Assembly (NCBI GenBank): GCA_019634305.1
Contig: JAHQVQ010000022.1
Span: 1-49,535 of the forward strand
Direction of reading: 5' to 3'
DNA length: 49,535 nucleotides
From: Flammeovirgaceae bacterium
GTDB taxonomy: Bacteria; Bacteroidota; Bacteroidia; Cytophagales; Flammeovirgaceae
The translations under genes were made by a program, and so were the position numbers. Below are positions 2,490-3,791 of this stretch, one piece after another. The notes beneath the pieces were generated by a model. That model was not told the DNA's origin. It saw nothing but the letters and a program-made list of their open reading frames with translations, and ran no database searches. How positions within the stretch are numbered: the stretch's first letter is position 1; every line of letters begins with the position of its first letter.

Positions 2490-2520
2490 AAAAAAAGCCC
2501 GAATAATAATTATCCAGGCT
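2490..2520 (-). terminator. Second terminator hairpin (T2) just before rtcB
   Basis: On the minus strand AGCCTGGATA pairs with TATTCGGGCT (10 pairs, two G-T wobbles, five-base loop), followed by a run of seven T. It sits 13 bases before the rtcB ATG. Its position directly in front of a gene argues for a conditional terminator. Its 5' arm can alternatively pair with the 3' arm of the preceding hairpin. Confidence 0.7.
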
Positions 2521-2537
2521 ATGAATTATTTTGAAAT

Positions 2538-2566
2538 AAAAAAGCCCGAACAGAAGGTTCAGGCTT
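2538..2566 (-). terminator. First terminator hairpin (T1) of the rtcB leader
   Basis: On the minus strand AAGCCTGAAC pairs with GTTCGGGCTT (10 pairs, one wobble) around a five-base loop, and the T-run follows directly. The 5' arm plus loop is also perfectly complementary over 13 nt to the end of the upstream leader ORF, so an alternative structure would remove this terminator. It could also simply end transcripts from the upstream hydrolase gene. Confidence 0.8.
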
Positions 2567-2611
2567 AGAATTTTATATTTTGAATAATACAAATACTACC
2601 TGAACCTTCTG
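2551..2611 (-). promoter_or_regulatory. Antiterminator pairing in the rtcB leader
   Basis: CAGAAGGTTCAGG (plus coordinates 2599-2611, read on the minus strand) and CCTGAACCTTCTG (2551-2563) are exact complements with a 35-nt loop. The first copy covers the last sense codons of the leader ORF, ending at its TAG. A ribosome at the stop codon would hide it and allow T1 to form; a ribosome stalled earlier would leave it free and block T1. With T1 blocked, its 3' arm can pair with the 5' arm of T2 (TTCGGGCT with AGCCTGGA, two wobbles), blocking T2 too. Confidence 0.6.
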
Positions 2612-2670
2612 AGTTCAAATCCAGCAAAATGCTTGCTGTTGTGGTTGATATTTATATTAAAAAGTAGCAT
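2596..2670 (-). CDS. Putative 24-residue leader peptide of rtcB
   Basis: The ORF reads MLLFNININHNSK followed by HFAGFELRRFR and a TAG stop. It is rich in Asn (4 of 24), Phe (4) and Arg (3), with two His, and the Arg codons near the end are AGA, AGG, AGG. Its final five codons contain the antiterminator strand, the usual geometry of ribosome-mediated attenuators. The same frame is open further upstream to an ATG at 2745, nine bases beyond the hydrolase stop, so a 49-residue version is possible; the short form is preferred because a candidate promoter lies in between. There is no clear Shine-Dalgarno sequence. No function is expected for the peptide other than being translated. Confidence 0.55.
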   Translation of the reverse strand: MLLFNININHNSKHFAGFELRRFR

Positions 2671-2689
2671 CTTTAGATGTGATTTGCTG

Positions 2690-2720
2690 CAAAAGAATAG
2701 TATTTTTTGAATTATCAAAG
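2690..2720 (-). promoter_or_regulatory. Candidate promoter for the rtcB leader
   Basis: On the minus strand a TTTG (-33-like) is followed 18 bases later by TTCTTTTG, which differs from the Bacteroidota -7 consensus TAnnTTTG at one defined position. Transcription would then begin about 10-15 bases before the leader ORF. This is motif matching only. Confidence 0.35.
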
Positions 2721-2753: not shown

Positions 2754-3791
2754 TTACTTTACATCATAAGGCAATTCATCTACAGGTTGTAAATTCATTA
2801 CTTCACCTAAAAACACCATAGAAGAATCTCGTACTTCCTGCCAATTCGTTGACACATACTTAGAGGCAATTACATGTTCCCCAGCTTCCGGGAATGGCAT
2901 ATTCACTTTAAGAGAATCGGGGGTTCCCAACTGACCAAACATTTTACGCATAGCTCTTACTGAAACTACCTGATCTTGTAATTCTTCATTTTTATAATAA
3001 TATCCTAGAAAGACCGGGCATTTTACTTTGGAAAAAATTTCTGGTTTCATCAATTCGGTAACTAAAGAAGATAAAGTGACTAGCCCTTCTATTCTATATT
3101 TTGTACTCCAATAATTTTCCTGAATCTCATATTTTGGAGTAAAACCTGCATAGTCGGAACCCATCACCACTCTCCCAACTTGTAAGCCCCACTGATCAGC
3201 TAGAAGTTTTGCGTTAGGATCATAGAAATCCACTAATGGGGAATATAGTACTAAACCAGCGATTTCAGGGTTTTCAGCAGCCAAGTAAATTCCAAACATT
3301 GCTCCAGTTGAAGTCCCCATTACAATAACCTGCTCTCCTATTTCTTTGCCAATGGCTATTGCCTTTTTTGCCGATTCTAAGAAGTTTTCAGGAGTTAGGT
3401 TAAAAAAAACATCCTCCTCCTGTATGCCATGCCCTTCCAATCGGGAAAGGTATAAGTTACAACCATAATATTTGGCTACTTCCATATGAAGAGGTTCCCC
3501 TTCACCCTGAGATGCTGAAAAACCATGTAGATAAACGATACTATAAGGAGTTTTCTCCTTTTTGTTTTCATTTGCCCAGATAATCCTTGCCTGATTATTT
3601 TCCTTAATGCCCGATACCGAAGCTTCAGATTGATTTATCTTTTTTTCCAGTTCAACTAAATTTCCATTCATTTCTGGCAATTCTCCATTCATATTCTTAA
3701 TTTTTATTTTTGGTCCGAAATAATAGACCAATACCAAAATAATTATGGCCCCTCCTACCCCTCCAAATAACCATTTGAGTACTTTTAGCAT
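2754..3791 (-). CDS. Membrane-anchored alpha/beta hydrolase
   Basis: A 345-residue serine hydrolase of the alpha/beta fold, of the lysophospholipase/esterase-like type. An N-terminal hydrophobic segment (about residues 10-27) should anchor it in the inner membrane with the catalytic domain outside the cytoplasm. YLHGF near residue 88 is the oxyanion-hole motif, GTSTG near residue 160 is the nucleophile elbow with the catalytic Ser, and GEHVI near residue 307 supplies the catalytic His. The substrate is unknown. It lies upstream of rtcB on the same strand, 277 bases away, separated by the attenuator-like region; the permease terminator lies upstream of it, so it probably has its own promoter. 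Confidence 0.85.
   Translation of the reverse strand: MLKVLKWLFGGVGGAIIILVLVYYFGPKIKIKNMNGELPEMNGNLVELEKKINQSEASVSGIKENNQARIIWANENKKEKTPYSIVYLHGFSASQGEGEPLHMEVAKYYGCNLYLSRLEGHGIQEEDVFFNLTPENFLESAKKAIAIGKEIGEQVIVMGTSTGAMFGIYLAAENPEIAGLVLYSPLVDFYDPNAKLLADQWGLQVGRVVMGSDYAGFTPKYEIQENYWSTKYRIEGLVTLSSLVTELMKPEIFSKVKCPVFLGYYYKNEELQDQVVSVRAMRKMFGQLGTPDSLKVNMPFPEAGEHVIASKYVSTNWQEVRDSSMVFLGEVMNLQPVDELPYDVK

Follow-up and report, generated by a model that had tools for sequence, protein, structure and literature searches.

The gene for the RNA ligase RtcB in the window, as the whole stretch of 49,535 nt of DNA analysed here is called, and in many of its Bacteroidota relatives is probably controlled by a ribosome-mediated transcription attenuator. 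This reading is based on five computed properties: a short leader open reading frame (ORF), alternative RNA pairings, their compensatory conservation, the placement of the leader stop codon and the specificity for rtcB. The attenuator-type sequence features upstream of rtcB had been observed in an earlier note on this DNA, and they are real. If the attenuator reading is true, the cell would make more RtcB when its ribosomes falter, and a cis-acting attenuator that reads translation would tie the capacity for RNA repair to ribosome trouble with no dedicated regulator. The established control of rtcBA involves sigma-54 and RtcR, a CARF-domain activator which senses tRNA fragments (PMC7790460, PMC9650030). 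The absence of RtcR as an alternative means of rtcB control was borne out, as the protein was found in none of 18 genomes searched, i.e. the window's own genome (84.7% complete) and those of 17 relatives, and the E. coli control was positive. In the open-access literature, to which the search was confined (subscription journals not covered), no paper on rtcB attenuation or on a leader peptide before rtcB was found; apart from the Proteobacteria that possess RtcR, the control of rtcB seems not to have been described.

The features of the locus are as follows.

3791-2754, minus strand: alpha/beta-hydrolase gene, upstream and codirectional, ending 83 nt before the leader ATG
2719-2690, minus strand: candidate Bacteroidota-type promoter read from the sequence, TTTG (2719-2716), N19 and TTCTTTTG (2697-2690), also present in the same-genus sequence
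2670-2596, minus strand: leader ORF of 24 codons plus TAG (2598-2596), peptide MLLFNININHNSKHFAGFELRRFR, with orthologous ORFs in loci L002 and L003 and in other families
2651-2647, minus strand: ATATC core, some 20 nt past the leader ATG; many rtcB leaders share this nucleotide motif, in either of two reading phases
2611-2599, minus strand: segment A, putative 5' strand of the antiterminator, CAGAAGGTTCAGG, in the final leader codons, identified by duplex energy and shuffles and by compensatory changes in relatives
2566-2542, minus strand: predicted terminator T1, 10 pairs followed by TTTTATTT, from terminator scan and folding probabilities
2563-2551, minus strand: segment A', 5' arm and loop of T1 and putative 3' strand of the antiterminator, CCTGAACCTTCTG, from sequence, duplex energy and covariation
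2520-2496, minus strand: predicted terminator T2, 11 pairs followed by TTTTTTT, with the U-tract reaching to 2489, from the terminator scan; a second terminator is also present in L002 and L003
2476-1076, minus strand: rtcB, RNA ligase RtcB of 466 amino acids (Pfam PF01139, E = 2.2e-78; orthologue 93% identical in the same genus), the presumed regulated gene

Segment A comprises the 13 nt directly before the leader stop codon and is the exact reverse complement of A', which lies about 35 nt further on. The duplex formed by the leader and the T1 arm has a calculated energy of -25.5 kcal/mol as compared to -10.6 ± 2.7 kcal/mol for shuffled leaders, of which none among 400 was as good, in agreement with the earlier description of a 24-codon ORF carrying a 13-nt exact complement to the 5' arm and loop of T1. 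The second terminator hairpin that had been placed right before rtcB is T2, whose tail ends 12 nt from the rtcB ATG, and the 3' arm of T1 is indeed able to pair with the 5' arm of T2, as had been claimed (9 bp, -12.2 kcal/mol). The scanned stretch contains eight terminator-like sites, 2.7 being expected, and the region as a whole folds with a z-score of -4.55, a stability reached by none of 200 shuffled sequences. A further in-frame ATG is located upstream at position 2745 and would extend the ORF to 49 codons; the proposed promoter falls between the two ATGs. The leader of the window has no Shine-Dalgarno (SD) sequence. No Rfam family reached its gathering score in the window or in six related loci, the best sub-threshold matches being far under the cut-off, and a tRNA within the leader, suggested by TTCAAATCC on the plus strand, was rejected, as ARAGORN finds none. 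Elsewhere in the window's genome, a second, shorter RtcB-like gene with 39% identity to the RtcB of the window is present (G000:C390:2534-3634). The same genome (G000:C216; L035:1519-1457, minus strand) also contains an ORF of 20 amino acids, MLLFNLTILLSKKLFLKKYF, directly before a gene for a 4-hydroxyphenylpyruvate dioxygenase-like protein; its start context TCTAAAGATGCTACTNTTTAAT is that of the rtcB leader, which may be chance in AT-rich DNA.

In the proposed mechanism, transcription would start just upstream of the short leader ORF. A ribosome that reaches the leader stop codon would cover A, so that A' pairs with its terminator partner A'', T1 forms and rtcB is off, and folding predictions for this state give T1 a probability of about 1.00 in the window and in its relative Flexithrix dorotheae. 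A ribosome that stalls before the middle of the leader would leave A free to pair with A' before A'' is made, T1 would not form and RNA polymerase would continue toward rtcB; with the ribosome placed at codon 5, the predicted probability of A:A' is 0.96 in the window and 0.94 in F. dorotheae, and that of T1 in the window is 0.00. If no ribosome is present on the leader, the window is again predicted to adopt the ON fold (A:A' 0.95), whereas in F. dorotheae T1 is favoured (0.99), which would lead to termination, the behaviour of classical attenuators. For an RNA that ends right after A', the probability of A:A' exceeds 0.85 in 15 of 18 leaders, indicating that this pairing can form before the terminator is complete; early pairing is weak in L119, L193 and L194. 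In relatives with arms of 6-7 bp (e.g. L120, L145), T1 is favoured at equilibrium in every state, and a switch there would thus rest on folding during transcription.

The earlier note had further proposed that two antiterminator stems are formed, and here the prediction is less favourable: the stem between the T1 3' arm and the T2 5' arm has a probability of 0.95 only until the 3' arm of T2 itself is made, after which T2 wins at equilibrium. T2 forms at equilibrium in every leader state, independently of the leader, and control of T1 alone may therefore not suffice; polymerase would have to pass T2 either because it is leaky or because of a transient block by the 3' arm of T1. The geometry, the A:A' pairing and the conservation of the frame in relatives speak for the ribosome-mediated attenuator that had been suggested; a second antiterminator that prevails at equilibrium and a specific damaged tRNA as signal are not supported.

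The pairing of A with A' is conserved beyond the window. Over 14 distinct combinations of leader and terminator, with segments aligned by hand from the model alignment, 89 of 98 A:A' pairs are standard as compared to 77.9 ± 1.8 when the arms are permuted, and none of 20,000 permutations reaches 89, whole arms being exchanged among species, which does not correct for phylogeny. Compensatory changes are evident at pair 3 (CG in seven, TA in six) and at pair 5 (GC in eight, AT in four), as illustrated by GACCGGG:CCCGGTC in Fulvivirga, GACCAGG:CCTGGTC in L120, GATCAGG:CCTGATC in L199 and GTTCAGG:CCTGAAC in the window. The competing terminator pairing A':A'' is standard in 97 of 98 positions, and leaders pair more stably with their own T1 than in between-species mixes (-15.5 vs. 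-11.2 kcal/mol, permutation p below 5e-5). The reading frame of the leader, whose conservation had been named as a check along with covariation, was also found to be kept: the phase of A relative to the leader ATG is identical in 15 of 19 leaders, although in some the distance is altered by 15 to about 33 nt, with L193, L195/L197 and L199 as exceptions. The stop codon is located 6 nt past A in ten leaders and directly after A in three, including that of the window, positions at which A is covered by a ribosome in the act of terminating. The ORFs of L137 and L199 already end ahead of A. A third conserved pairing, C:C', of the start of the leader with the sequence preceding T1 was considered and rejected, since it is strong only in L003 (p = 0.002) and not in general (permutation p = 0.12).

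The nearest relative found is F. dorotheae (contig NZ_KB903454.1), whose RtcB is 93% identical and which has retained the ORF (MLLYNINIDHYSNSFAGIELQRFR), a 9-bp core of A:A' and both terminators. L003 (RtcB 65%) likewise retains an ORF (MLRINLHIAHYYTPQLYDGVDQLPG), 6 bp of A:A' and both terminators. Short ORFs before rtcB occur in many families of the Cytophagales, Chitinophagaceae, Sphingobacteriaceae and Saprospiraceae, with peptides such as MMVQKIHIALLTGMLAA, MLEQNYHIVPETGLK, MTERIHISPLSPAA and MMLVFNLHIES. A sequence-only profile matches about 50 of 149 rtcB upstream regions, some of these being seed sequences; roughly two thirds of the regions inspected, mostly those of other RtcB subfamilies, show no leader of this type. 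A sequence-only profile built without the RtcB subfamily of the window recovered L003 (9.2 bits, equalled by 0/300 shuffles) but was not sufficient to find the window (1.3 bits, equalled by 16/300 shuffles). The homology claim for the window is therefore based on a covariance model, on synteny and on the chain leading from the window via F. dorotheae to L003. This model, R1, was trained on seven terminator-type rtcB leaders from other families, with the window and its genus excluded, and recovers the window leader at its exact place (2537-2675) with 27.6 bits and E = 0.006 over 283 kb, the E-values being rough because the calibration was short; F. dorotheae and L003 score 34 and 26 bits, respectively. 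A gene-blind scan of 395 genomes of the class with R1 gave 13 matches at a similarly rough E ≤ 0.01, of which the top four, and six altogether, lie directly upstream of rtcB; the other seven are hairpin terminators away from rtcB. The core pattern as a genome-wide element was rejected: 52 matches were obtained in 390 genomes of the order, 13 genomes having one upstream of rtcB, and the others, few of which were inspected, look scattered. A second model, R2, applied to order and phylum, gave only matches below 44 bits, none at rtcB, besides its training members L207 (at rtcB) and the window. Among these low-scoring matches, L209:1501-1652 and L215:1501-1600, from the same order, resemble leader attenuators with Trp codons (NNWWW and NWW), consistent with attenuation being in use in the phylum.

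Two further elements accompany the related leaders. In 33 of 41 cases, a promoter box TAnnTTTG lies 34-56 nt ahead of the leader ATG (2.4 in shuffled sequences, at most 8); the exact -7 box is absent from the promoter-like element of the window (2719-2690). A strong SD sequence precedes 20 of 51 leaders, the corresponding figures being 9 of 598 for ORFs of these loci and 6 of 147 for the rtcB starts. In the family f19, a different leader (M...TYRFEL..SDIRFMPWFFS) is present before rtcB, with its ATG 4 nt past a TATCTTTG box, and its end pairs with the 5' side of a terminator with -25 to -29 kcal/mol (p 0.0025-0.01); judged by sequence, the attenuator logic recurs here with other letters.

Other types of rtcB upstream region were also encountered. 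Chitinophaga, Sphingobacterium, Mucilaginibacter and relatives (L134, L135, L138, L140, L143, L151, L153, L162, L173, L188) possess a near-constant rtcB leader of 14 amino acids, MTExIHISPLxxxA, whose stop codon falls into the loop of a GCC-GGC hairpin; a terminator is not obvious there, and regulation at these leaders may differ from that of the window type. In Bacteroides (L139, L149, L155, L156, L165, L172), the SD sequence lies in a hairpin and the ORF has 4-6 codons only (MLEL, MLEQL, MLEISK); downstream of it, a GGACTAA...TTAGTCC structure is conserved. Between leader and rtcB, L129 (830-1519) contains a basic ORF of about 230 amino acids without a Pfam match, which overlaps the rtcB start and whose product is possibly a partner of RtcB; in Taibaiella, Pedobacter and Mucilaginibacter (L130, L132, L133, L148, L158, L170), rtcB is likewise preceded by coding sequence of similar appearance.

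With respect to the signal, the earlier note had pointed to loss of a functional tRNA or to ribosome trouble. Sensing of one particular damaged tRNA is at odds with the leader peptides, which differ widely between lineages and have neither a codon conserved in frame nor a conserved run for one amino acid. The motif shared by the leaders is ATATC: 43 of 51 have it some 20 nt past their ATG, with a mean of 1.7 and a maximum of 7 in shuffles. The count of 43 is inflated and partly circular as several leaders were first spotted by the motif; the motif is exact in three of the nine leaders that were found by the covariance model (L129, L094, L137, L194-L197, L199, L205; L094 was also seen by its SD sequence). 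As [ACT]ATATC occurs in two reading phases (20 and 23 leaders), it specifies no fixed codons, and sensing of a codon or peptide was discarded as a universal explanation. Trouble with leader translation in general would be the simplest signal and fits better than a single tRNA. A link of the rtcB leader to tRNA-cleaving stress is conceivable.

A codon-specific attenuator, in which the leader reads the charging or integrity of particular tRNAs, e.g. those for Asn, Asp, His and Tyr (queuosine), is an improbable alternative. The queuosine-containing tRNAs are targets of colicin E5-type nucleases. In the three leaders of this clade (24-25 amino acids), these four residues make up 21 of 70 positions after Met and are crowded in codons 4-13, ahead of A, where stalling would turn rtcB on. 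However, this enrichment was spotted post hoc and in related sequences, it is not seen in the shorter leaders elsewhere (MFDLNTIAFR, MLEQNYHIVPETGLK, MTERIHISPLSPAA), and ATATC, the only motif conserved early in the leaders, is maintained at the nucleotide level, in either of two phases, and does not fix codons. The sequences of the Flexithrix clade may nevertheless leave room for a tRNA-specific input.

About equally improbable is that a protein, small RNA or metabolite binds the ATATC region or the SD hairpin and thereby causes antitermination, the ORF being secondary. The constancy of ATATC whatever the frame, for which the pairing model offers no explanation, would be accounted for in this way, as would the Bacteroides leaders, which retain the start region with an ORF of a few codons. 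Against a binder stand the in-frame position of A relative to the ATG and the fixed distance of the stop codon from A; furthermore, no known Rfam family is present here and no candidate binder was identified. The least probable explanation, namely that T1 and T2 are plain 3'-end terminators of the alpha/beta-hydrolase gene (2754-3791, minus strand) with an rtcB promoter between or after them and an incidental ORF and pairing, is compatible with the codirectional gene ending 83 nt before the leader ATG and with the tandem terminators common at gene ends, but the approximately 12 nt from T2 to the rtcB ATG leave no space for a promoter, a promoter-like element precedes the leader, and leader, pairing and stop placement are found again before rtcB in other families, which makes it very unlikely.

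According to the attenuator reading, then, the leader would be translated and would control read-through in cells. A more far-reaching proposal, which we regard as possible though rather doubtful, is that the leader reports on ribosome function in general, covering initiation, often via the unusual SD sequence and hence the 3' tail of 16S rRNA, and early elongation, so that malfunction of the very machinery that RtcB mends would directly induce it. In E. coli, RtcB mends damaged tRNA and rRNA. If this proposal is true, Bacteroidota would have a response to RNA damage that works without a protein regulator. Attenuation as such has long been known, but we are not aware of an earlier case in which it serves RNA repair and no codon signal is conserved; such a use would carry leader attenuation from biosynthesis and drug resistance into RNA repair.

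Compared with known systems, the putative rtcB attenuator resembles RtcR/sigma-54 control in that it would act on the same enzyme upon damage to the translation machinery, but RtcR is a protein activator, whereas the rtcB leader would act by cis RNA and the ribosome. With the leader attenuators of the trp, his, thr and phe operons, it shares a short ORF, mutually exclusive antiterminator and terminator and a masking position of the stop codon, and in these systems an untranslated leader leads to termination, as is predicted for F. dorotheae. It differs from them in its target, an RNA ligase rather than biosynthesis, in the lack of a codon run for a single amino acid, in the often strong SD sequence and in the tandem terminators of the Flexithrix clade. 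In bmrB-bmrCD (PMC4191407) and the msrD leader (PMC10314930), leader translation is likewise tied to a terminator and the target eases ribosome stress; in contrast, no drug or arrest peptide is known for the rtcB leader, its peptide varies across lineages, and its target repairs RNA instead of exporting drugs or protecting ribosomes. Finally, ribosomes of Bacteroidota hide the anti-SD sequence, and the strong SD sequence at rpsU is regulatory (PMC9976891). The rtcB leaders with a strong SD sequence (20/51) resemble rpsU in using it as a putative regulatory element, although the phylum avoids it elsewhere; they would be a further class of such sites, to be placed beside rpsU and certain other ribosomal genes. 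However, the SD sequence of rpsU governs translation of bS21 itself, whereas that of the rtcB leaders would drive the leader ORF, the leader of the window being one without it.
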